A DNA stretch of 40,172 nt, taken from NCBI GenBank assembly GCA_927405585.1, contig CAKMJS010000117.1, positions 1 to 40,172 on the forward strand. Reading direction: 5' to 3'. Each line of letters begins with the position of its first letter. The first letter of the stretch is position 1. Made by a program: the position numbers and the translations under genes. The notes beneath the pieces are model-generated. The model searched no databases, had not been told where the DNA came from, and saw only the letters and a program-made list of their open reading frames with translations. This stretch comes from an uncultured Desulfosporosinus sp. GTDB lineage: Bacteria > Bacillota > Desulfitobacteriia > Desulfitobacteriales > Desulfitobacteriaceae. Below are positions 7,688-35,785 of this stretch, one piece after another.

Positions 7688-8893
7688 CTATATCATAGTT
7701 CCAGCTCGGTGACCGGTCGTTAGAGCGACCCCTCCCCCACAATGATCGGTCCAAGGATCCCAATGAGCTAGCATACGTCCACACACATAAACATTGTGCA
7801 AGTAAATTTCGCCATCGCTTCTGAGGGGATGAAGCTCGGCGTCGACCTCTATGCCCGTCTGGGTATACGGTTGGGGTCCTAAAAAACCGTCCGACGTCCA
7901 CTGTTCAGGTATGAAAAGTGGACAATCAAAGATCCCCTCCCGAATCGTCCGTGGTCCAACCTGAATACCACCTCCGAAGATGCCACCGGTAGCTAACACA
8001 AAGGACTTGGCCTTTAATTCAAGTGTTTTCCCATGACTCTGAAGGGAAATACTAGGACAGTAACCCTCCTCTATAACAGCGGCTTCAACCTTTCCATTCG
8101 TTAAAAACTCCCCACCTAAATCTTTAAATTTCTTTCTGAGGAATTGATAAAGATTCATTCCCACGGGAGAGGGTGGGAAAATAGTCGGCTCGACAATCGA
8201 GACTGTAAGGGATTTCAATAAATCGCGCAGTAACGGCTCAAATGAGGCACTTAACCCTGGGAAAACCAGCACTAAGCCCTCTTTCATCCCAGCTAATTCA
8301 CCAATGATTCCCATAAGAAACTCACGTAAATAGTCTGTCCCCTCCACAGATGCCCAGTATTTGGCATAATCTGACGGGAGAATACTCTTGCCTAAGCTAT
8401 AGTGTTGAGCAAACCTATCCACTTGCAGAGGTTTAATCGTCACGATGGCTTGAGGAAAATTCAGGGCCAGGTTCGAAGCAAATAACCCAGGAAAAAAGTC
8501 CTTTAACCCTTGTGGAGCGATTAGAACTATTTCTCTAGCCGCTTCTAAGGGTTGGGCAGATAAACTGTAGGGTACATACCCTGCTGGACGAATCTCACCA
8601 AGAGGAGTGAGAATAGGTTGACCCTTAGCCCACGAGCCCGTATAAAAAGGGCATAGTTCCTGCCACTTGCTGACCGATTGGAGTGCCTGATCTTCTGAAA
8701 TATGCGAGAAGGGATGGTCCTGTCGATCCCTAAGTGCGTTGAAATCTCCAAAATCTATAACTCCGGAGGTAAAGGAAAGACTACCTATCCCTTCTGCTAC
8801 GAGCATTACCTGTTTCCCTCGCTCAGCCGCTGTTATCCCAGCAACTAGACCGGCCAAACCTCCCCCAATAATAATTCCATCCCACACAATCAT
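7688..8893 (-). CDS. glpB: anaerobic glycerol-3-phosphate dehydrogenase subunit B
   Basis: GlpB is the second flavin-binding subunit of the anaerobic GlpABC complex. The protein begins MIVWDGIIIGGGLAGLVAG, a dinucleotide-binding Rossmann motif, and has a second flavin-type segment FVLATGGIFGGG plus a C-terminal GGGVALTTGHRAG. I place the start at the ATG at 8893 because it overlaps the glpA stop in an ATGA, with GGGGG just upstream; a TTG at 8914 is the alternative and would add seven residues. The size of 401 residues fits the family. Translational coupling to glpA is likely. Confidence 0.92.
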   Translation of the reverse strand: MIVWDGIIIGGGLAGLVAGITAAERGKQVMLVAEGIGSLSFTSGVIDFGDFNALRDRQDHPFSHISEDQALQSVSKWQELCPFYTGSWAKGQPILTPLGEIRPAGYVPYSLSAQPLEAAREIVLIAPQGLKDFFPGLFASNLALNFPQAIVTIKPLQVDRFAQHYSLGKSILPSDYAKYWASVEGTDYLREFLMGIIGELAGMKEGLVLVFPGLSASFEPLLRDLLKSLTVSIVEPTIFPPSPVGMNLYQFLRKKFKDLGGEFLTNGKVEAAVIEEGYCPSISLQSHGKTLELKAKSFVLATGGIFGGGIQVGPRTIREGIFDCPLFIPEQWTSDGFLGPQPYTQTGIEVDAELHPLRSDGEIYLHNVYVCGRMLAHWDPWTDHCGGGVALTTGHRAGTMI

Positions 8894-21998: not shown

Positions 21999-22496
21999 TC
22001 ATTTGACAGTCGTTGCACACTCACTGGCTTCCCCTTTGAGAATCTGGATTCCGTGAGGAATGGCCGGGGCAATGGCTGCAAAGCATTCGCGTACAGCCTT
22101 GGGACTACCCGGCATATTGATAATTAACGTTTGTTTGCGAAGAACTGCTACTGCTCTGCTTAGCATTGCCTTACTTGTCACCTTAAGACTTTCCATTCTC
22201 ATCACTTCTGCAATACCGGGTACCAATCGATCTGCCACAGATAGCGTGGCCTCAGGCATCACATCCCGCATCGAAAAGCCCGTCCCGCCGGTCGTTAGAA
22301 TTAAATCTAAACCAAGTTCATCTGCCCATTGACGCATTTTGTCAGCAAGTAACGTTTGCTCATCCGGGAGAATGACATATTCGACGACTTCCCCGCCGAT
22401 CTCTTGAACAAGTTGACTAAGGGTTGGCCCAGAGAGATCTTCCCTTTCTCCACGCGACCCTTTGTCACTTGCCGTGATAACCCCTACTCGGATCAT
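21999..22496 (-). CDS. mogA: molybdopterin adenylyltransferase (MogA/MoaB family)
   Basis: The enzyme adenylates molybdopterin before metal insertion. The 165-residue protein starts MIRVGVITASDKGSRGERED, with the MoCF-domain motifs LTTGGTGFSMRD and NMPGSPKAVRE. Size fits the single-domain MogA/MoaB type. Its ATG overlaps the stop of the MOSC gene as ATGA, so the two are translationally coupled. It is last in moaA-moaC-MOSC-mogA. Confidence 0.92.
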   Translation of the reverse strand: MIRVGVITASDKGSRGEREDLSGPTLSQLVQEIGGEVVEYVILPDEQTLLADKMRQWADELGLDLILTTGGTGFSMRDVMPEATLSVADRLVPGIAEVMRMESLKVTSKAMLSRAVAVLRKQTLIINMPGSPKAVRECFAAIAPAIPHGIQILKGEASECATTVK

Positions 22497-22930
22497 TCAG
22501 CAATCACCTCAATACTGTCTCCGACACGAACCGCTCCGCCTTCCAACAGGCGTATAAAGATACCTTCCTTCGGCATAACACAGTCTCCAGCTTGATAGAA
22601 GATGGCACATTTGGTATGGCATTCTTTACCGATTTGCGTGACTTCTCCGATACTGGTTTCCCCTATTTTGAGTTTGGTCCCCACAGGAAGGGTGAAAAGC
22701 TCCAGTCCTTCGGTGGTTAAATTCTCTGCAAAGTCCCCTGGCCCTACCTTTAACCCTTTGTCCGTCATCTTCTTAATACTTTCCATCGCCAGCAAACTGA
22801 CCATACGATGCCAATCTCCGCCATGAGCATCCCCTTCAAGACCAAAGCCGACTTTCAGAATTGCTTCGCCTACATTCTTCTTGCGCATTCCTTTTCGTTC
22901 ACTGGTGCATACTGCTATTATTTTCCCCAT
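22493..22930 (-). CDS. stand-alone MOSC-domain protein
   Basis: The protein is 145 residues from the ATG at 22930, with GAGG 8 bases upstream; a longer frame to 22969 lacks support. It has MOSC-domain features: GLEGDAHGG early, PGDFAENLTTEGL in the middle, GKECHTKCAI with the conserved Cys and EGIFIRLLEGG near the end. MOSC domains handle the sulfurated molybdenum cofactor or carry reactive sulfur. Position between moaC and mogA supports a cofactor role. Precise reaction unknown. Confidence 0.9.
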   Translation of the reverse strand: MGKIIAVCTSERKGMRKKNVGEAILKVGFGLEGDAHGGDWHRMVSLLAMESIKKMTDKGLKVGPGDFAENLTTEGLELFTLPVGTKLKIGETSIGEVTQIGKECHTKCAIFYQAGDCVMPKEGIFIRLLEGGAVRVGDSIEVIAE

Positions 22931-22975
22931 TATATTAACCTCGCTTTCATCATTTAAGTCTTCTTGCATTAAAGG

Positions 22976-23443
22976 TTATCGGACAAAATGTCCGCTTTTC
23001 CCACCCGACTTTTCAACTAGGTAAATATCCCCAATGGTCATGGTCTTGTCCATCGCTTTACACATATCGTAGATTGTTAAGGCTGCCACACTGACTGCCG
23101 TTAGGGCTTCCATCTCAATCCCCGTTTTTCCATTGACTTTCACAGTCGCCTCAATATGGACTTCACCCGGCTCGACTAAGTTGAAACTAAGCTTAGCCCC
23201 TGTAATCATGAGAGGATGGCACATCGGAATGATCTGTGAGGTTTGTTTGGCTGCCATGATTCCCGCAACTTGAGCCACTGCCAGAACGTCTCCTTTAGCG
23301 ATTAGCCCAGAGCGAACTCGATCAAACGTCTCAGCTTTCATGGTAATTTTTCCTCGGGCAACTGCCACACGGGCCGTTTCAGCTTTATCACTGACGTCTA
23401 CCATTCGGGCTCGCCCCGCTTCATCAAAATGAGTTAAATCCAT
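22976..23443 (-). CDS. moaC: cyclic pyranopterin monophosphate synthase MoaC
   Basis: MoaC turns the MoaA product into cyclic pyranopterin monophosphate, the first stable cofactor intermediate. The 155-residue protein has [16 protein letters not shown], the MCHPL active-site motif and [20 protein letters not shown], and keeps the basic KSGGKSGHF tail. Its ribosome site GGAGGT is also the last two glycine codons of moaA. The spacing of 6 bases to moaA supports one transcript. Confidence 0.96.
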
Positions 23444-23449
23444 TGTCTA

Positions 23450-24421
23450 TTAACCTCCGATCTGAGACATTACACGTTGACCCTGCAATGCTTCATCATT
23501 CATACGATGCTCCGCTGGTTTATGCCAAACTGCTTGGGCAAAAAGATCTAGGATAGCCGCATCCGAGCTTCCATTTCGGAGGACATCACGTAGACTTATT
23601 TCATGTTTACTATGCAAACAAGGACGCAATTTTCCATCCGCGGTTAAGCGGACACGATTGCAGGTATCGCAAAAGTGGCGACTCATCGCGCTGATAAAGC
23701 CAATGCTGCCCTTATAACCCTTTGGTTGTACATACTCTGCTGGTCCTCCACCTAGAATACCTTTCGTTGAAACGTACTCCTTCAGTCCTAAGAGTTCTTT
23801 CATTTCCTTAATCGGTACAAAATCGGCACGGTGCTCGGAACTAATGCCAATGGGCATCAGTTCGATGAAGCGAACATGGATCGGGTACTGCTTGGCTAAC
23901 GTCAAAAAGTTGGGCAACTCGTCCGTATTAAACCCGCGGACGACGACCACATTAACTTTAACCGGATTGAGTCCCGCTTCAAGCGAACGAAAGACTCCCT
24001 GAATGACTGTAGAAACCTTCCCCCCGCGGGTAATATCGAGAAATCGCTCTGGATCCATGGTATCCAAGCTGATGTTCACTCTCTGAACGCCTGCTGCTTT
24101 GAGATCAAAGGCCATTTCTGGAAGTAACAGTCCGTTCGTTGTAATCATTAAATCCTCAACTCCCGGAAGTTTAGCCCCCTCTCTTAGAAAGTCTAAAATT
24201 CCTTTGCGGACTAAGGGTTCTCCTCCAGTAATACGAAAACGTCGAAATCCTAACTGCGTACTTATCCGCATGAGTCGAAGAATTTCTTCAAAAGAAAGAA
24301 TGGATTCATGGGGCATTAACTGTACGCCTTCGACTGGCATACAGTATTTACAGCGCAGATTACAGCGATCGGTCACAGAAATTCTCAGATAGTCAATTTT
24401 TCTTTGAAATTGATCCTTCAT
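23450..24421 (-). CDS. moaA: GTP 3',8-cyclase MoaA (radical SAM)
   Basis: MoaA carries out the first step of molybdenum-cofactor synthesis from GTP. The protein is 323 residues from the ATG at 24421, chosen for the AGAGGA site. Radical-SAM cysteines are in CNLRCKYC, the second cluster in CDTCNRVRL plus the cysteine in LRPC, and the chain ends in the conserved Gly-Gly tail. The gene heads the moaA-moaC-MOSC-mogA operon, behind a 220-base leader with a structured part and a terminator, so its expression is probably controlled by transcription attenuation. Confidence 0.96.
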   Translation of the reverse strand: MKDQFQRKIDYLRISVTDRCNLRCKYCMPVEGVQLMPHESILSFEEILRLMRISTQLGFRRFRITGGEPLVRKGILDFLREGAKLPGVEDLMITTNGLLLPEMAFDLKAAGVQRVNISLDTMDPERFLDITRGGKVSTVIQGVFRSLEAGLNPVKVNVVVVRGFNTDELPNFLTLAKQYPIHVRFIELMPIGISSEHRADFVPIKEMKELLGLKEYVSTKGILGGGPAEYVQPKGYKGSIGFISAMSRHFCDTCNRVRLTADGKLRPCLHSKHEISLRDVLRNGSSDAAILDLFAQAVWHKPAEHRMNDEALQGQRVMSQIGG

Positions 24422-24460
24422 AAAATATCCTCTTTTCAAGATTTAATTAAAATTACACAT

Positions 24461-24799: not shown

Positions 24800-25585
24800 A
24801 TGCCAAATGAAACAATAACTCATTCCGTTCTGAAAGCAAAGGGACTACTTCTCGAATGGGTGGAAGACTCCGTGGTTCGAGAGGTTCCGTTAACCATCCA
24901 CTATAACAGGGAGGAGATCGCCACACTATTATGCTCTCCGTCCCAAACAAACGAACTCGTTTATGGGTTTTTACTTAATGAAGGCTTTATCCGTGTTCCA
25001 GAGGACATCTACGAATTCCGCCACGATCCCGTCGATCACTTAGTTTGGATCGAAGGCAAACCGTGTGTCTTACAAAAAGAGCTGATGAGCAAGCGCTTTG
25101 TATCGGCCTGTTGTGGCAAAAGTAGAGCTTCCTTTTGTTTCGCGAACGATGTTCTGATGGTTAAACCGCTCAGCTCAACCCCCAGCATCTCTCTTCAGGA
25201 GACCTATGGTTATGTGAATTTTTTACAGTCCAATTCAACACTCTTTGAGTCAACCGGAGGAGTACACAGTGGTGGGGTTGGCTATCAAGGTGATATTCTG
25301 CTGACAAGCTATGACATTGGCCGGCATAATGTCTTTGATAAGCTCAGTGGAGGTGCCTTTCAAACAGGCTTAAAGCTTGAAAATCATGTTATTTTTTTTA
25401 GCGGTCGGGTTTCCTCAGAAATCCTACTCAAGGTCGCTAAAATGAAGGTTCCCATCCTTATAGCGCGGGGTGCCCCCACCGATATGGCCCTTTCTCAGGC
25501 GGCAGCCTTAAATATCACCGTGATAGGATTTGCCAGGGAGCAAGGCCTTAATATCTATACCTGTCCCGAGAGAATTACGCCTTAA
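24800..25585 (+). CDS. fdhD: formate dehydrogenase accessory sulfurtransferase FdhD
   Basis: FdhD passes sulfur from a cysteine desulfurase to the molybdenum cofactor of formate dehydrogenase. The 261-residue protein has the family segments NELVYGFLLNEGFI, SACCGKS in the sulfur-carrying loop region, STGGVHSGG and SYDIGRHNVFDKLSG. The ATG follows GAGGAGG at 7 bases. It is divergent from moaA, and its last 11 bases overlap the convergent mobA. Its presence matches the selenocysteine formate dehydrogenase at 30799-33480. Confidence 0.95.
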   Translation: MPNETITHSVLKAKGLLLEWVEDSVVREVPLTIHYNREEIATLLCSPSQTNELVYGFLLNEGFIRVPEDIYEFRHDPVDHLVWIEGKPCVLQKELMSKRFVSACCGKSRASFCFANDVLMVKPLSSTPSISLQETYGYVNFLQSNSTLFESTGGVHSGGVGYQGDILLTSYDIGRHNVFDKLSGGAFQTGLKLENHVIFFSGRVSSEILLKVAKMKVPILIARGAPTDMALSQAAALNITVIGFAREQGLNIYTCPERITP

Positions 25586-26153
25586 GGATTTCCAACCAAT
25601 CGTCCGGTGTATTGACATTACATAAGACCTGACTCAAATCACGAAAACTCTGAAGCTCGGTTTCCGCCACATACCGAACCGAACAAGACGGATAGAAATC
25701 AATAATCTTGAGGCAACCCGCCTCGAGATTATGTTTGATGGTTGGAATACAACGTCGATGATAAAAGGCGTGCAGAGGGTGTAGGCCGGACTTAAGCTGA
25801 GGAACGACAACATCATACGCTGGTGTCCAAGACGATAAAAAATGGATGAGCTCTACGCTTAAAAACGGCATATCACAGGCTACGAAAAAAACCTGGTCAT
25901 AGGTTGCCGCTTTTAAACCCTGATAAAGTCCTTCTAAAGGGCCTTGACCAAGCATCTCGTCCTGAAAGATGGGTACACCGTACCTTGCATACAGTTCGGG
26001 CTGGTTGCTGCTTATTAATACCTCTGCAAAGACTGTTTTTAGGACTGTTAAACTTCGCTCCACTAAAGGCTTGCCTTCCAGTTCAAGGAAGGCTTTGTTT
26101 TTTTTCATTCGCGAGCTTTTCCCACCTGCCAGCAAAATTCCGGTTGCCTTCAA
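25575..26153 (-). CDS. mobA: molybdenum cofactor guanylyltransferase MobA
   Basis: MobA joins GMP to the molybdenum cofactor, giving the MGD form used by formate dehydrogenase. The 192-residue protein has the nucleotide motif LLAGGKSSRMKKNKA, then DEMLGQGPLEGL and FFVACDMPFL. The start is a TTG at 26153, since no ATG or GTG is in frame at the right place; its ribosome site is weak, suggesting coupling to the selenoprotein gene that ends 34 bases upstream. The 3' end overlaps fdhD by 11 bases. Confidence 0.92.
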   Translation of the reverse strand: MKATGILLAGGKSSRMKKNKAFLELEGKPLVERSLTVLKTVFAEVLISSNQPELYARYGVPIFQDEMLGQGPLEGLYQGLKAATYDQVFFVACDMPFLSVELIHFLSSWTPAYDVVVPQLKSGLHPLHAFYHRRCIPTIKHNLEAGCLKIIDFYPSCSVRYVAETELQSFRDLSQVLCNVNTPDDWLEILKA

Positions 26154-26187: not shown

Positions 26188-26424
26188 CTAGTAATTTTTA
26201 AAAACCTCCTCGTATTCAGCGGACGAGAAACGGGTTAGAACTCGCTCTCCAACGATCGTGATAGGAACTGCAATCTTATCAGTCCGTTTTCTCAACTCTT
26301 TTAGATTTTTAAAAATGACAATATTTTTTTCAGTATACATAATTCCTTTACCCGAAAGGAATCGCTTAGCGCTAGCACAGTAAGGTCAAAGAGGGACAGT
26401 ATACATAATCACTTCTTGACTCAT
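26188..26424 (-). CDS. selenocysteine-containing glutaredoxin-like protein (UPYC)
   Basis: A 78-residue frame is interrupted only by TGA at 26388-26386, codon 13. Read as selenocysteine it gives MSQEVIMYTVPLUPYCASAK, matching the glutaredoxin active site CPYC with its first cysteine replaced. The cis-proline motif VPITIVGE follows at about 53-60, and the fold length is right for a short Grx or NrdH-type redoxin. An ATG with GAGGAG 8 bases upstream starts it. A hairpin with a G-containing loop follows the TGA (26341-26363). It lies 34 bases ahead of mobA, likely in one transcript. The formate dehydrogenase in this window shows that this genome uses selenocysteine. A pseudogene with one nonsense change is the alternative. 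Confidence 0.85.
26341..26363 (-). promoter_or_regulatory. bacterial SECIS-like hairpin in the glutaredoxin gene
   Basis: GATTCCTTT and AAAGGAATT pair over nine positions around loop CGGGT. The loop starts about 31 bases after the TGA, within the range reported for bacterial SECIS, and has G near its 5' side. Confidence 0.7.
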
Positions 26425-26487
26425 GAATTTCACTCCTCAAATCATCTGTTCTGCTTTCAATGTACCACATCTTACTTTTCATGTCAC

Positions 26488-26529
26488 GCGTGTTGAGGGG
26501 ACGGTCCTTTTGACACGCCCTCAACACGC
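26488..26529. repeat. REP-like palindrome with a GGGGACGGTCC core
   Basis: Arms GCGTGTTGAGGG and CCCTCAACACGC are perfect, enclosing GACGGTCCTTTTGACACG. The GGACGGT motif recurs at 36928, 37043 and 37151. Such elements are often spread by RAYT-type transposases; none is in the window. Confidence 0.75.
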
Positions 26530-28591: not shown

Positions 28592-28714
28592 TTATCTTTG
28601 CAATGCTTTCGGAGTTTTGGGTTGATACAGCCACCACGAACACGCAAAAACTGAGGTCGCGCTAGCTAAGAGCATTAGCATGGATGCGATCAGGGTAAAA
28701 AGGTACCTTTTCAT
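28592..28714 (-). CDS. agrD: AgrD-like cyclic peptide autoinducer precursor
   Basis: The 40-residue peptide has an amphipathic N-terminal helix MKRYLFTLIASMLMLLASAT, the core ACSWWLYQP and a charged C-tail KTPKALQR. This is the layout of AgrD-type precursors: Cys25 would close a thiolactone with a residue four or five positions on, and the PKxPxxL-like tail is the AgrB recognition part. Its ATG overlaps the agrB stop (ATGA). It is too short for the usual ORF callers. The mature signal structure is inferred from the family. Confidence 0.88.
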   Translation of the reverse strand: MKRYLFTLIASMLMLLASATSVFACSWWLYQPKTPKALQR

Positions 28715-29304
28715 AGTCCATTCACACCTCCTTTTCTATTAAAAATAGGCAGTAAGGTGCTGCTTTGATAAAACACACCCAGGACTGCACTAACACTTAC
28801 TAATTTATTATCGAGAATTGAAATTATTAAGAGTGAAACAACTACGAAAACCATTGACGAAATCTTAAGTTTTACTTTTAAGCTACTTGAATGAATTGGC
28901 TTTGATTCGCTGTCTACCGGAGCCAAGAATGCTACTAGTGAAAAAGAAACAAGTAGAATAATTATCAGAATGACCTGATTAGTTAAGTCGTAATTAACAA
29001 GTTTTTTGGCTAATACCCCAATTAAAGCATATGTAATAGCACCAATGGTCAAGCATTTTAATGGAGTATCAAAATGAGCTCCTCCCGATACTCTTCGTAA
29101 TAAACCACCAAAAATTGCCGCAACAAGCGCCGGTATTAAAGCATTTAAAGCATATCCTAAGAGTATTATTAAAAATGTGCCTAAAATGAATAAAAGTGCT
29201 GTTTCAACGGCAAATGCAATAATTTCCTTTTTATCTTCATTATAATTTAATTCATTGGTTATAAATCCTGTGAGTTTATGGCTAATATTTTCAGTGAAAT
29301 TCAT
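28711..29304 (-). CDS. agrB: AgrB-like peptide-processing membrane endopeptidase
   Basis: AgrB cuts the C-terminal tail of AgrD and forms the thiolactone. The 197-residue membrane protein has about six hydrophobic segments and the catalytic pair His77 and Cys84 in RRVSGGAHFDTPLKC, at the same positions as in Staphylococcus AgrB. Its start overlaps the end of the preceding membrane protein by 14 bases, and its stop overlaps the agrD start. No agrC/agrA partner of classical form follows; the PAS kinase downstream is not AgrC-like. Confidence 0.95.
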   Translation of the reverse strand: MNFTENISHKLTGFITNELNYNEDKKEIIAFAVETALLFILGTFLIILLGYALNALIPALVAAIFGGLLRRVSGGAHFDTPLKCLTIGAITYALIGVLAKKLVNYDLTNQVILIIILLVSFSLVAFLAPVDSESKPIHSSSLKVKLKISSMVFVVVSLLIISILDNKLVSVSAVLGVFYQSSTLLPIFNRKGGVNGL

Positions 29305-29770
29305 TCACACTCGACCCCTTTTTTTGGATGAGTCTATTTAACAAAAAAGCAGAGCAAAATGTAAGAATTACTTGAGGTTCTCCTATCGCAATCCTTATTA
29401 CTAGGTTAGTCAATAGGGTTTCAGGTGTTACTCCAAAAACCGGCATTAATAATGATAGGGACACAAGCTCAAAGATTACTAAAGCTAAAAAACTCAATAA
29501 GCTTGCAATAAGGGATAAGCTGAAATCTCCCTTGCCTAGGGAAACTAAAGCTATAAATAACAAAATGATCAGCACAAATAAATGAACCCCAAACGGGATG
29601 GGCAGCAGTCTCACACCATAAGAAATAAAAGCTAAAACAATCCCAATCAGTAAAATTTTTCTCCAGTTTAAAGGTATTCTAGCAATTACACAAGCTAACG
29701 TTGTAACTGCCGTTAGCTCAGGTATACCTTGCAAAAGTAAAGCAATCCATGGAATGTTTATAAATCTCAC
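29291..29770 (-). CDS. five-to-six-pass membrane protein, agr-linked copy B
   Basis: This 159-residue protein is almost entirely hydrophobic, with five or six segments, beginning near INIPWIALLLQGIPELTAV. It is clearly related to the protein at 30078-30530: both share LLLQGIPE, ARIPL.W.KILL.GI, RL.P.PFG.H, GVTPETL..(N/D)L.IRI..GE. The GTG at 29770 aligns with the copy A start. It resembles the membrane sensor part of some clostridial GHKL kinases, here without any kinase part. It overlaps agrB by 14 bases, so it is part of the agr transcript. Function unknown. Confidence 0.8.
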   Translation of the reverse strand: MRFINIPWIALLLQGIPELTAVTTLACVIARIPLNWRKILLIGIVLAFISYGVRLLPIPFGVHLFVLIILLFIALVSLGKGDFSLSLIASLLSFLALVIFELVSLSLLMPVFGVTPETLLTNLVIRIAIGEPQVILTFCSAFLLNRLIQKKGSSVNEFH

Positions 29771-29846
29771 AGCCTTTCCAAATAAACATAACTGCACTAC
29801 ATTACTCTACAACATCGCTGCGCCTATCGTTCTAGCTCTAATTTCA

Positions 29847-29888
29847 ATTATTGCACACTCCACGGGCGAATTTGCGCGAATCTTGTCT
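29847..29888 (-). promoter_or_regulatory. agr promoter B with palindrome
   Basis: On the minus strand GACAAGATTCGCGCAAATTCG is followed by AGTGTGCAATAATTGAAA. It aligns with promoter A at 30655-30697. The near-palindrome ATTCGCGCAAAT sits in the -35 area, 17 bases before an AATAAT -10-like box. Confidence 0.6.
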
Positions 29889-30077
29889 TAGTAGAAAATT
29901 ATTTCCAGATTCGGAGAGAGATTCTTTACATTACACTGAACTATTGACATTGTTAGTTCCAAAGTCACATAATAACAGGACTTAAGTCCTATAGGTTTAT
30001 AGAAACTGGTCTTTAAATGCGCCTTGTCTCGATAAATCTCAAAAATTAATCTAAGACGCCTTCCCTCAACTTAAGGT
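29889..30077. other. non-coding interval between the two membrane genes
   Basis: There is no credible gene. A perfect 14-base palindrome AGGACTTAAGTCCT lies at 29977-29990. The 30078-30530 transcript probably ends in this stretch. Confidence 0.5.
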
Positions 30078-30530
30078 TCAGGCAACTCTTGCTATGTATA
30101 ATTTATTTACCAGAAAAGCAGAGATAAATAAAAGTAGCACATGCGATTCTCCTACTACAATTCTTATAATTAAGTCGTTGAATAGGGTTTCAGGAGTTAA
30201 TCCAAAGATAAGCATAAACAACGACAGGCAACTAAACTCAAATATCCCTAGCGCAAGAATACTCGCTGAAGATGCCATAAAGGATAGGCCGACATCCCCC
30301 TTAGTTTTCCAAGTTAAAATAATAAACTGTACGAAGAGTAGCAAAATAGTATGAATTCCGAAAGGCATAGGAATCAGTCTCACTACATACGCACACAAAG
30401 CTAGAGCAATCCCAGTCAATAGAATTTTTTCCCACTTTAAAGGTATTCTGGCAACTACAAAAGCTAGCGTTATAATTGCAGTTTGTTCAGGTATTCCTTG
30501 CAAGAGCAAAGCGAGCAATGGAATTCTCAT
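30078..30530 (-). CDS. five-to-six-pass membrane protein, agr-linked copy A
   Basis: This protein is 150 residues from the ATG at 30530 (MRIPLLALLLQGIPEQTAII), with GGTGGTGA close upstream; a GTG four codons earlier is also possible. It has five or six hydrophobic segments and is a diverged duplicate of the 29291-29770 product, with the same LLLQGIPE opening and TPETL(F/L) and IR...GE near the end. It is transcribed from its own promoter A. Unlike copy B it is not next to agrB. No catalytic residues are evident; a peptide sensing or modifying role would be speculation. Confidence 0.78.
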   Translation of the reverse strand: MRIPLLALLLQGIPEQTAIITLAFVVARIPLKWEKILLTGIALALCAYVVRLIPMPFGIHTILLLFVQFIILTWKTKGDVGLSFMASSASILALGIFEFSCLSLFMLIFGLTPETLFNDLIIRIVVGESHVLLLFISAFLVNKLYIARVA

Positions 30531-30654
30531 AGATCTCACCACCCATTCGGTTGATAATAACCTGTTTGATACAAATCTCTGAGAAGATATCCTTCGTCGC
30601 CCGCCATGATATGCATATTAAACTCGACAAGACTCAACTGTTCTCCCTCTTTCT

Positions 30655-30798: not shown

Positions 30799-33480
30799 CT
30801 AACTAATTTTTGAGATCTGCACGCCACAGACTTTATACTCATACGTTTTGGTGACTTTATCATACGCCCCATTGGTTAAGACGTTGGTTGGTGTCTCCAA
30901 GTAATGAAGTGTCATAAAGACCACTCCCTCAGGAACTCGCTCGGTGATGACGATCTTCGTATCCAGTTCTCCTCGACGAGACTTAACGTGGACCCGCTCA
31001 CCGTCTTGGAAGCCAAGCCGTTTGGCATCCGCCGGATTGATTTCTGCCAACTCTTCTGGAGAATAGGTTTCCAGGGCGGCTGAATTTCTAGTCATGACGT
31101 TATAGTGTGCCAGTTTGCGTCCCGTGGTGAGTAAGAATGGGTACTCAGCATCCGGCGATTCGTTAGGCTCTTGATTCTCGATTGGCATGAAGAGCCCTTT
31201 ACCACGAGTACAGGTTCCTTCGTGCAAGAACTTCGTACCCGGATGGTCACAGGATAGAACTGGCCACTGCAAACCATGGTTCTCTAGGCGTCCGTGGGTA
31301 ACTCCAGCGTATTGAGGCGCCAAGGAGGCTACTTCTAACATGATGTCTGCTGGAGATTGATACGTGAATGGGTATCCCATACGAGTCGCCAGTTCACAGA
31401 TAATTTCCCAATCCGGCTTAGAGTTGCCGATTGGCTTAATGGCTTGATTGACTCTTTGCACTCGTCGCTCAGTATTTGTAAAGGTGCCGTCTTTCTCTGC
31501 AAAACTAGCTCCAGGAAGTACAACATCTGCTAGCTTAGCTGTTTCCGACATAAAGATGTCTTGCACTACAAGGAAATCAAGGGCCTCAAGGCCTTTGCGA
31601 ACATGGTTCGCATCGGCATCCGTCAGCACTGGATCCTCACCGAAAACATACAAGGCCAGTAGATTCTTACTGTGCGCTGCTTCAAACATATCTGGAATCA
31701 TAAATCCTGGTTTAGGGCTGAGTGAAACACCCCAGGCAGCTTCAAATTTAGCCTGTGCTGCTGGACTTACGATTGGTTGGTAACCTGGATAGACGTTGGG
31801 TAGTGCTCCCATGTCGCAGGCACCTTGAACATTATTTTGCCCGCGTAATGGGTTCACTCCGGAACTTTCTTTACCCAAATTGCCAGTGAGTAAGGCGAGA
31901 TTCGCCAAGCTCATGACATTATCTGTGCCGTAAGTGTGTTCCGTGATCCCTAAGGTATAAAAGATTTGTGCAGGATCTGTGGTGGCATACAGTCGAGCCG
32001 CTTCGACGAGTTGATCGACAGGAACACCCGTGATTTGACTAGCCACTTCAGGTGGATACTTTGCGATCGTCTCCAAGAATTTTTCGTCAAACCCTTCCGT
32101 ACGTTCTTCGATGAACGCGCGGTTTTCCCAGCCATTGGCGAGAATAATGTTCATCATCCCGTTGATCAGCGCAATATCTGTTCCCGGACGAAGTCTTAAA
32201 TAAAGATCTGAGTACTCAGCGAGCTGAGTTTCTCGAGGATCGACGACGATCAGCTTTGCCCCATTTGCTAGGGCTTGTTTCATTTTAGTTCCAATGACAG
32301 GGTGAGCTTCGGTCGTATTTGACCCGATAACAAACATTAGTTTAGTATTAGGGATTTCATTAATGGAATTCGTCATTGCTCCGGAACCGAATGATATGGC
32401 CAGACCGGCCACAGTGGGAGCGTGTCAGGTCCGGGCGCAGTGGTCGATGTTATTGGTCCCGACCACTGCGCGCATGAATTTTTGCATGACAAAATTATCT
32501 TCGTTGGTACAACGGGCAGAGCTTAAAGCCGCAATGGCATCTGCTCCGTAGTTATTTTTGATTTCCTGGAACTTCGTCGCCACTAAATCAAGGGCTTCAT
32601 CCCATTCTGCAGGGACAAACACTCCATCTTTCTTAATCAACGGGGTCGTCAGGCGATTCGGACTATGAATCATATCCGTTCCGAAGCGTCCTTTGACGCA
32701 AAGTGCCTTCCCGTTCACCGGTGCATCAGGGTTAGAGGTCACGCCAATGACTTTGCCGTCTTTAACATTTAAGTCAAAGTTACACCCTGTTCCACAAAAC
32801 GGACACGTGGTTTGAACTTTCTTGATTTCCCAAGGGCGTCCCTTGCCGACCATGTGTTTTTCGGTCAACGCGCCAACTGGACAGACCGAGACACAAGAAC
32901 CGCAGAAATCACAATCTGACTCATTATAGGGTAAATTAAAGGCTGGACTTACCTGCATATTAAAGCCACGAAATGAATAATCCAAAATGCTTTTCCCTTG
33001 GATTTGAGAACACGCCTTGATGCATTTTCCACACAAAATACATTTATTGGGATCTCTCAAAATAAACGGATTTCCGTCATCAATAGGAAGTTTACGTTTC
33101 TCCCCTTGATAAATTTCACCTGTTACACCATAATCATAAGCATATTCCGCCAAAAAGCAGTTTCCCATTTTTTGGCAAGTCATGCAATCTAACGGATGAT
33201 TCGCCACCAACAATTCCAAAATTGTTTTGCGTGCTGCTCGGACTTTAGGACTTTGAGTTTGAACCACCATGCCCTGCCATACTGTAGTTCTGCAAGCTGG
33301 GGGAAGATTATGGTTTCCTTCGATTTGAACCACGCACAAACGGCAGGCGCCGTCAGAGGTAAGCTCTGGGTCATAACACAAGGTAGGAATTTGGATATCA
33401 TGCATGCGACAGGCTTCAAGTATGGACGTTCCCTTCGGAACGCTTACTTCGCACCCATCGATAGTTATTGTAATCAACAT
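30799..33480 (-). CDS. fdhA: selenocysteine formate dehydrogenase, catalytic alpha subunit
   Basis: This enzyme oxidises formate to CO2 or reduces CO2. The 893-residue chain starts at the ATG at 33480 (AGGAGGT 7 bases upstream). It has an N-terminal [2Fe-2S] domain (CYDPELTSDGACRLC), a NuoG-like cluster region, two ferredoxin clusters (CILCGKCIKACSQ, CDFCGSCVSVCP), a further cluster CPFCGTGCNF, then the molybdopterin domain. TGA at 32427-32425 is codon 352 in NNIDHCARTUHAPTVAGLA, exactly where E. coli FdhF and relatives have selenocysteine, so the two ORFs are one gene. The hairpin after it has a GGTCT loop. It is the last gene of the operon with NuoF- and NuoE-like subunits. Confidence 0.96.
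32397..32411 (-). promoter_or_regulatory. SECIS hairpin of fdhA
   Basis: TGGCC(GGTCT)GGCCA begins 13 bases after the TGA, and the GGTCT loop begins 18 bases after it. E. coli fdhF has AGGTCT in the same place, about 17 bases from its UGA. Confidence 0.88.
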
Positions 33481-33499
33481 CAATGTACCTCCTCTCAAT

Positions 33500-35290
33500 T
33501 TATGCCTGGACAACCGCATCAAATTTACATTTATCCACACAAGTTCCACATTTGATGCAATCGTCTTCATTAACCACATACGGTTTTTTCTTCTCCCCCG
33601 TAATACAACTCACCGGACAGTTTTTAGCACAGAGCCCGCACCCTTTGCATTTTTCTGCATCGATTGTATAACTAAGCAAGGCAGAACAGGAATGCGCTGG
33701 ACACTTATGCTCAAGAATATGCGCCTCGAACTCATGTCTAAAGTATTTGAGAGTTGCAAGAATGGGGTTTGGAGCACTATTACCCAATCCACAAAGTGAA
33801 GTCTCTATAATAGTGTAGGAAAGATTTTCCAAGATGTCGATATCTTCCAATTTTCCCTCGCCTTTAACAATTCTATCTAGGATTTCGTACATTCGTTTTG
33901 TACCTTCTCGACAAGGAGTGCATTTTCCACAAGATTCTTTCTGAGTAAAGTCTAAAAAGAAGCGAGCTATATCTACCATGCAAGTGGTCTCATCCATAAC
34001 CACGAGTCCACCTGAGCCAACCATAGCCCCAGCTTTCGTTAATGTATCATAATCCACCCGGATATCCAGCATCTCCTCAGGTATACACCCACCAGAAGGA
34101 CCCCCTATTTGCACTGCTTTAAAAGCCTTGCCATTTTGAATTCCTCCCCCAATGTCAAAGATGATCTCCCGGAGTGTCGTTCCCATAGGAACTTCAACCA
34201 AGCCTGTATTGTTAACCTTTCCGGTCAGGGCAAATATTTTTGTTCCTCTACTATTATCTGTCCCGTATTGGGTATACCAATCTGCTCCGTTTAGCAAAAT
34301 ATGAGGAACATTCGACCAAGTTTCTACGTTATTAATAACTGTTGGTTTACCAAACAAGCCACTGACTGTTGACCGGGGTGGTCGCATACGGGGCATTCCA
34401 CGTCTACCTTCAATAGAAGCCATCAACGCTGATCCTTCTCCACAGACAAAGGCTCCGGCGCCAGCGAAAACATTCAGTTTAAAGTTTAAACCCGAGTTGA
34501 GAATATTATTTCCTAAGAAGCCAGCTTCCTCGGCTTGCCGAATTGCAATTTCCAAGTTCTTAATGGCCAAGGGGTATTCTGCTCGGCAATAAACGTATCC
34601 TTCATCGACACCCATGGCATAGGCACCAATCAACATTCCCTCGATCACGGAATGCGGATCCCCCTCAAGGACGCTACGATCCATAAAAGCTCCGGGATCC
34701 CCTTCGTCACCATTACAGATAATATATTTCTTATCGCTCGGCGTTGGGAGGATAGCGGCCCACTTCTTACCCGTTGGAAAGCCCGCACCGCCACGACCGC
34801 GAAGCCCAGATTTTCTAACTTCTTCTAGGGTCTCCGCCGGTGACATCTCTTTGAGTACCTTCTTTAAAGCAGCGTATCCGTCCCGGGCAATGTATTCTTC
34901 AATCTTCTGGGGATCAATAACACCGCAATTTTTCAGAACAATCCGATGTTGCTGTGCAAAAAATGGGACTTCAGACATCGTACTTAATGGCTTTTGAGTT
35001 ACCTGATCTAGAAGCAGAAGGCGTTCAACACGTTCGCCTTTCATAATATCTTGAGCCACTATTTCTGCAATATCCTCCGGTTTAACTGAGCAATATAAGA
35101 CCTGCTGTGGTTCAATAACCACCGTCGGACCTTTTTCACAAAACCCTTGGCACCCAGTACCAACAATGCTCACGGTTTCTTCGAGTCCTTGCTTGTTGAG
35201 CTCCAATTTCAAGGCATCAATAAGTTTATGGGCCCCCGATGATGCACATCCTGTCCCCGCACAAACTAAAATCCGTTGGTTCTCTGCCAT
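33500..35290 (-). CDS. NuoF-like NADH-binding/electron-transfer subunit of formate dehydrogenase
   Basis: The 596-residue protein has an N-terminal thioredoxin-like [2Fe-2S] segment (CAGTGCASSG and GTGCQGFC), a NuoF core with GRGGAGFPTGKKW and NGDEGDPGAFMDR (FMN and NAD binding), the SLBB region, the cluster CGKCTPCREGT, and two C-terminal [4Fe-4S] motifs (CKGCGLCAKNCP, CIKCGTCVDKCK). This order is typical of HydB/FdhB-type subunits in NAD-dependent or electron-bifurcating complexes. It lies between nuoE-like and fdhA, 19 bases before the latter. ATG with GGGGGAT site. Confidence 0.93.
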   Translation of the reverse strand: MAENQRILVCAGTGCASSGAHKLIDALKLELNKQGLEETVSIVGTGCQGFCEKGPTVVIEPQQVLYCSVKPEDIAEIVAQDIMKGERVERLLLLDQVTQKPLSTMSEVPFFAQQHRIVLKNCGVIDPQKIEEYIARDGYAALKKVLKEMSPAETLEEVRKSGLRGRGGAGFPTGKKWAAILPTPSDKKYIICNGDEGDPGAFMDRSVLEGDPHSVIEGMLIGAYAMGVDEGYVYCRAEYPLAIKNLEIAIRQAEEAGFLGNNILNSGLNFKLNVFAGAGAFVCGEGSALMASIEGRRGMPRMRPPRSTVSGLFGKPTVINNVETWSNVPHILLNGADWYTQYGTDNSRGTKIFALTGKVNNTGLVEVPMGTTLREIIFDIGGGIQNGKAFKAVQIGGPSGGCIPEEMLDIRVDYDTLTKAGAMVGSGGLVVMDETTCMVDIARFFLDFTQKESCGKCTPCREGTKRMYEILDRIVKGEGKLEDIDILENLSYTIIETSLCGLGNSAPNPILATLKYFRHEFEAHILEHKCPAHSCSALLSYTIDAEKCKGCGLCAKNCPVSCITGEKKKPYVVNEDDCIKCGTCVDKCKFDAVVQA

Positions 35291-35302
35291 CCCTTTATCC
35301 CC

Positions 35303-35785
35303 CTACTCGTATTTGGCTAATATTTCTGTAATACTCTCCGGTAACAATCTGCCATGAACCTCATTGTTAATCGATATCACCGGTGCAAGTCCACAGGCTC
35401 CAATACATGCCACGACTTCCAGGGTAAATCGTCTATCTTGAGTCGTTGCCCCGTCTTTAATCTTTAATGCCTTCTCGATAGTTTCTAGGATCTTAGCCCC
35501 ACTCCGGACATGGCAAGCCGTTCCCAAACAGACGTTGATCACATTTCTCCCCGAAGGAACTAAACGGAACTGAGCATAAAAGGTAGCTACTCCATATATC
35601 CTTGCCAGAGGTATCCGCAAAGCTTTACTGATGTGTTTAAGCACTTCAGCTGGCAAATACCCGTAAACCTCTTGGGCATGTTGCAAAACTGGGAGCAGAG
35701 GTCCATTCTCATGTTTGTATTTGGTAATAATCTCCTCTAACTTAACTTGTTTAGGATCCACTAAATCTTCACACGCGGTGCACAA
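35303..35785 (-). CDS. NuoE-like thioredoxin-fold [2Fe-2S] subunit
   Basis: The 160-residue protein has a helical N-terminal part (LLPVLQHAQEVYGYLP) and a thioredoxin-like domain with cluster cysteines in CLGTACH and CIGACGLAP. This is the HydC/NuoE type and passes electrons with the NuoF-like subunit. The start is TTG at 35785 with AGGGGG 7 bases upstream. The N-terminal MCTACEDL adds an unusual extra Cys pair. It is second in the operon after the cyclo-ligase-like gene. Confidence 0.92.
   Translation of the reverse strand: MCTACEDLVDPKQVKLEEIITKYKHENGPLLPVLQHAQEVYGYLPAEVLKHISKALRIPLARIYGVATFYAQFRLVPSGRNVINVCLGTACHVRSGAKILETIEKALKIKDGATTQDRRFTLEVVACIGACGLAPVISINNEVHGRLLPESITEILAKYE

Follow-up and report, generated by a model that had tools for sequence, protein, structure and literature searches.

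Standard gene calling misses or shortens selenoprotein genes. Within the window – a 40,172-nucleotide stretch of contig CAKMJS010000117.1 from an uncultured Desulfosporosinus sp. – a short frame ahead of mobA carries an in-frame TGA, raising the question of whether the gene is broken or encodes a selenoprotein and, if the latter, what such a protein might do at this locus. The nearest named relatives of the genome are Desulfosporosinus. The original prediction, made from the sequence alone, placed a selenoprotein glutaredoxin at 26188-26424; these coordinates proved correct, and we add the strand (minus), which had gone unstated. Features of the locus are collected in Table 1.

Read on the minus strand from 26424 to 26188 with TGA as U, the frame translates as MSQEVIMYTVPLUPYCASAKRFLSGKGIMYTEKNIVIFKNLKELRKRTDKIAVPITIVGERVLTRFSSAEYEEVFKNY. 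It contains a single TGA, within the motif P-L-U-P-Y-C, ends at a TAG and has a Shine-Dalgarno sequence (GAGGAGTG) immediately 5' of its ATG. The translation thus bears out the 78-codon frame with TGA at the first active-site position, and the good ribosome site that had been proposed is present as well.

Table 1. Features of the glutaredoxin locus and its surroundings in the window.
Feature	Position	Strand	Remarks
Predicted selenoprotein glutaredoxin gene	26188..26424	-	78 codons plus TAG stop; predicted Sec codon TGA is codon 13
TGA very likely read as selenocysteine (U of U-P-Y-C)	26386..26388	-	TGA or Cys codon in 33/33 copies
Predicted bacterial SECIS hairpin	26341..26363	-	9-bp stem, CGGGU loop, within coding sequence
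Promoter-like box GTGACA-N17-TACATT	26459..26487	-	TG before second hexamer; conserved ahead of glutaredoxin
mobA (MobA-like NTP transferase)	25575..26153	-	directly 3' of glutaredoxin, same strand
fdhD (FdhD/NarQ family)	24800..25585	+	convergent with mobA
fdhA (Sec formate dehydrogenase catalytic subunit)	30799..33579	-	two ORFs, split by own TGA at 32425-32427
nuoF- and nuoE-like formate dehydrogenase subunits	33500..35785	-	nuoF by domain match; nuoE by sequence and synteny
moaA, moaC, MOSC and mog (Mo-cofactor genes)	21999..24439	-	MOSC by domain match; others by sequence and synteny
Moco riboswitch RF01055	24499..24635	-	49.8 bits; ahead of moaA

With C put in place of U, the protein matched the Pfam Glutaredoxin family (PF00462) at 40.8 bits, against a gathering threshold of 22.9 (E=2.6e-10). 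An AlphaFold model built from 13 aligned family members (pLDDT 91.9) had as its best PDB match the dithiol cGrx1 structure 7c10 (Z 13.7, rmsd 1.3 A, 74 residues), followed by NrdH-redoxins (Z about 12.5) and E. coli Grx3. The Sec/Cys site 13, P14, C16 and P54 are invariant in the alignment. The protein is accordingly modelled with the features that define the PF00462 fold – a thioredoxin-like fold, an N-terminal CxxC-type active site and a putative cis-proline.

The original prediction had called for homologues with Cys at residue 13. Among 33 copies of the gene, codon 13 is TGA in 20 and a Cys codon in 13, and no copy has any other codon. The Sec forms carry U-P-H-C (n=14), U-P-Y-C (n=3, window copy included) or U-P-N-C (n=3), and the Desulfosporosinus Cys forms are all C-P-Y-C. 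Cultured species with a TGA allele include D. nitroreducens and D. fructosivorans. A quick tree built from the neighbouring MobA and FdhD proteins implies seven changes between Sec and Cys, at least five of which are forced by well-supported branches. Judged from these sequences, the glutaredoxin flips between Sec and Cys repeatedly within one genus. The gene is also under purifying selection: dN/dS, measured mainly 3' of the TGA, is about 0.1-0.2 overall, with values of about 0.07-0.3 in comparisons to the window copy and a median of 0.18 across 177 pairs.

We then considered the hairpin that follows the TGA (GAUUCCUUU-CGGGU-AAAGGAAUU). Published limits for a bSECIS are a loop of 3-9 nt, a stem of 4-16 bp, a G among the first two nucleotides of the loop, a spacing of 16-37 nt and an MFE of at most -7.5 (PMC13188914). 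With 9 bp, a start 22 nt past the UGA, a UGA-to-loop gap of 31 nt and an energy of -7.5 kcal/mol, the hairpin lies within every one of these limits, though it barely reaches the limit on energy. The SECIS check that had been proposed therefore agrees with the predicted 9-bp stem and CGGGT loop at bacterial SECIS distance, on energy only just.

Because the hairpin lies within the coding sequence, where protein conservation could mimic RNA conservation, we compared TGA and Cys copies for synonymous diversity in the hairpin codons and in the rest of the gene. For TGA copies synonymous pS is 0.30 over the stem codons and 0.71 outside them, whereas for Cys copies the corresponding values are 0.67 and 0.61. 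The least diverse run of eight codons in the TGA set begins one codon 5' of the stem. When only within-genus copies at the mobA/fdhD locus are considered, the hairpin/rest synonymous ratio is 0.41 for TGA and 1.10 for Cys copies (p=0.0014 in a label permutation that takes no account of relatedness between copies). Four TGA copies from other genera encode FFESRG in place of FLSGKG and have other stem letters; their hairpin is just as good, AGUCU occupying the loop positions held elsewhere by CGGGU. Across the nine fixed stem pairs, TGA and Cys copies differ weakly when G-U is counted (8.6 versus 7.8, p=0.024) and more clearly when only Watson-Crick pairs are (7.2 versus 4.9). The folding energy of the region is ordinary relative to synonymous shuffles for most sequences, the window copy among them, so we base the SECIS claim on synonymous diversity instead. 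Its collapse at the hairpin in TGA but not Cys copies, together with retention of the hairpin despite a changed peptide and changed stem letters, argues strongly that this hairpin is a functional SECIS.

These observations bear on whether the gene is a pseudogene, that is, an ordinary Cys glutaredoxin with a nonsense mutation. Decay does occur at this locus – relative G028 has a true decayed remnant at the same place – but it is a most improbable account of 20 copies with TGA at one position, of a low dN/dS 3' of that TGA, of a hairpin conserved in TGA copies only and of a Sec/Cys label that takes five to seven changes on the mobA and fdhD tree.

The genes selA, selB, selD and tRNA-Sec (selC), which the original prediction had named as ones to look for, were all found in the genome, each above its own cut-off. 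Readthrough of the TGA to insert tryptophan or some other residue, or its use as a signal for regulatory truncation, we consider scarcely credible: relatives without TGA invariably have Cys at this codon and never Trp, a SECIS and the sel genes are present, and ordinary-looking ORFs in the genome end in TGA. What is sought in a bacterial selenoprotein – a UGA aligned with the Cys of homologues, a hairpin within bSECIS limits and selA, selB, selC and selD in the genome – was found here. Of the outcomes named in advance as speaking against the prediction (no aligning homologues, frameshifts, absent sel genes), none was encountered. With Sec/Cys exchange, SECIS constraint, a complete sel machinery and a predicted glutaredoxin fold all in agreement, the selenoprotein reading of 26188-26424 is very likely correct, and the short, seemingly stop-broken gene very probably encodes a functional, selenium-containing Desulfosporosinus glutaredoxin. 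Separately, the selD of this genome (contig C25:12995-13921) has an in-frame TGA of its own, so SelD is probably itself a selenoprotein.

To place the protein among known redoxins, we considered profile, structure and tree comparisons. In the NCBIfam profile search the YruB, glutaredoxin-3 and UXX-star models all matched the window protein, and none reached its cut-off; the best by score was TIGR02196 (YruB; 49.1 bits, cut-off 88.55), and UXX-star NF041212 scored 38.1 bits (cut-off 66). All 13 aligned family members matched the same models. The YruB family and the NrdH-redoxins are thus close to the window protein by top NCBIfam score and by structure, respectively, but their known members are mainly Cys proteins. 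The UXX-star families (NF041212, NF041211 and NF047338) are likewise small glutaredoxin-like (seleno)proteins with an active-site Sec; the window protein differs in falling under all the curated cut-offs and in retaining the second Cys.

The structure 7c10 (with 7c12) is the cGrx1 of Alkaliphilus (Clostridium) oremlandii, which shares with the window protein a glutaredoxin fold, a UxxC active site and about 39% identity. Judging by the title of Kim et al. 2011 (cited in PMC13188914), the A. oremlandii selenoprotein glutaredoxin is reportedly tied to a Sec MsrA. The two proteins nonetheless differ in clade, and the window protein is tied to mobA and formate dehydrogenase. Membership in a cGrx1-type clade was rejected with a 47-sequence tree (only 73 columns), in which the 31 included copies formed one clade on a long branch with 97/100 support and cGrx1 fell outside it, pairing with a paralogue from contig C113 of the window genome. 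This paralogue (C113:20464-20655) is a second, cGrx1-type Sec glutaredoxin with U-P-Y-C, and TGA frames like it recur in many relatives.

Published lists have included Sec glutaredoxins since 2006 (PMC1794560; also PMC13188914). Since this class is already known and the window protein belongs to a clade of its own apart from cGrx1, sequence comparison places it as a separate subfamily inside the class of selenoprotein glutaredoxins. It is a small glutaredoxin above no current NCBIfam selenoprotein cut-off and reveals a subfamily that no model yet covers, one whose place in a Mo/Se enzyme locus is conserved. Our literature search, which covered few subscription journals, found no paper naming a Desulfosporosinus Sec glutaredoxin. 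The family makes a good test case for the exchange of Sec for Cys because, within one genus and at one locus, the residue is Sec or Cys by species and the SECIS constraint is present or gone to match; the repeated flips amount to a natural experiment on SECIS decay.

We next sought insight into the role of the glutaredoxin from its genomic context. It lies directly 5' of mobA in 25 of the 33 copies, adjoins fdhD in one more and is found elsewhere in seven. The copies ahead of mobA mostly fall within the locus for an NAD-formate dehydrogenase and the Mo cofactor. The gene order nuoE-nuoF-fdhA(Sec)-...-Grx-mobA-fdhD(opposite strand)-moaA-moaC-MOSC-mog is present, whole or in part, in Desulfosporosinus, Paradesulfitobacterium, Acididesulfobacillus and related genomes, and a distant Cys homologue (42% identity, another family of the order) is also 5' of mobA, near nuoE/nuoF/FDH-like ORFs. 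The linkage to mobA and fdhD is therefore stronger than had been claimed, being conserved across several genera.

The Sec formate dehydrogenase that had been noted in the window was recovered as well, with the in-frame TGA of fdhA followed by a UGGCC-GGUCU-GGCCA hairpin. FdhA and the glutaredoxin thus have in common a neighbourhood, an in-frame TGA and a bSECIS hairpin; they differ in loop (GGUCU, not CGGGU) and in that FdhA keeps its Sec in the relatives examined even beside a Cys glutaredoxin. Co-variation of Sec status between the two was not seen in Desulfosporosinus, where formate dehydrogenase stays Sec. The distant relative L110 has a Cys glutaredoxin and an uninterrupted FDH-like ORF of 894 aa. 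Between fdhA and a histidine kinase gene, the window also encodes an AgrB-like protein and two related small membrane ORFs (28711-30542, minus strand; small ORFs at 29291-29797 and 30078-30542), which are found in relative L057 too.

In four Desulfosporosinus genomes (G007, G008, G014 and G026) fdhA-mobA-fdhD is retained without an intervening glutaredoxin, and in G028 the decayed 3' remnant lies 5' of mobA (L125 2471-2567) while a Sec copy survives beside selD. Strict dependence of formate dehydrogenase on the glutaredoxin was rejected on these grounds, at least four loci having kept fdhA-mobA-fdhD without the gene and a fifth having a decayed one. Because relatives lost the gene and kept its neighbours, the glutaredoxin is, on this comparative evidence, accessory to the locus and not essential for formate dehydrogenase.

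Of the seven off-locus copies, whose neighbours were named by eye, two Sec copies have a selD ORF, a gene for a LysR-type regulator and one for a TSUP-like permease nearby, another three have CcdA/TlpA-like, TSUP-like or rhodanese-like ORFs in their vicinity, and two are in other settings. What these places may share is the handling of sulfur or selenium. In a separate observation, genome G035 has a second TGA glutaredoxin (U-P-Y-C; L109, about 8290-8540) about 1 kb from its Sec copy, near a LysR-type gene and one further ORF.

The five copies in sulfur- or selenium-related settings, like the dispensability of the gene at the formate dehydrogenase locus, would suit a general seleno-redoxin of sulfur and selenium trafficking, which would reduce persulfides or selenium species (e.g., for SelD or rhodanese-type partners) and for which the formate dehydrogenase locus would be one setting of several. 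The protein would still be a selenoprotein glutaredoxin, its role alone being different. Against this alternative, which we view as possible but somewhat doubtful, stands the link to mobA in 25 of 33 copies, a link that extends to the distant Cys homologue from another family of the order. The role in Mo/Se formate metabolism suggested by the original prediction is thus well supported as gene linkage; as a functional role it is plausible but supported only in part: at least four loci lack the gene, one holds a remnant, and other copies lie in sulfur or selenium contexts without formate dehydrogenase.

The gene, its Sec/Cys exchange, the SECIS constraint, the decoding machinery, the fold and the linkage are all computational observations. 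Our joint reading of them, which we hold to be highly probable, is a functional Sec glutaredoxin gene whose product would run a Sec-Cys redox cycle and, in an accessory capacity, supply reducing power to the formate dehydrogenase/Mo-cofactor locus. Ribosomes would read the UGA as selenocysteine by means of SelB, tRNA-Sec and the hairpin, yielding a small oxidoreductase of glutaredoxin/NrdH fold with a Sec-x-x-Cys active site. Its Sec-Cys cycle would reduce disulfides, or persulfide or selenenyl-sulfide intermediates, and the gene would probably be co-transcribed with mobA from its own conserved promoter.

With respect to the target, sulfur is reported to travel from IscS to bis-MGD by way of FdhD, whose CXXC motif is not universal (PMC6239281). 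The FdhD of the window has CC in place of CXXC. Our most specific guess is that the glutaredoxin would carry out a persulfide- or disulfide-reducing step at FdhD. A narrower role, in which the seleno-redoxin would be dedicated to the formate dehydrogenase/Mo-cofactor pathway and act either on FdhD-mediated sulfuration of bis-MGD or on the redox repair of Sec formate dehydrogenase, we consider unlikely; if true, one selenoprotein would be helping another to mature. Should the link to formate dehydrogenase prove genuine, the maturation of this enzyme would include a redox step of which we found no description.

The promoter-like box, with a partly conserved spacer, lies 5' of the glutaredoxin in most Desulfosporosinus copies and in two unlinked copies. 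Elsewhere in the genome GTGACA-N17-TACATT has one other match, which is partial and upstream of an unrelated-looking gene; the box was therefore rejected as the mark of a regulon. Its conservation ahead of the gene, with only that one partial second match, makes it probable that the glutaredoxin is transcribed from a promoter of its own. A repeat (GGGGACGGTCCTTTTGACAC) at 26497-26516 (plus strand), between the genes for the kinase and the glutaredoxin, has 23 near-copies in the genome and none in a reversed control, and looks like a dispersed REP-type element.
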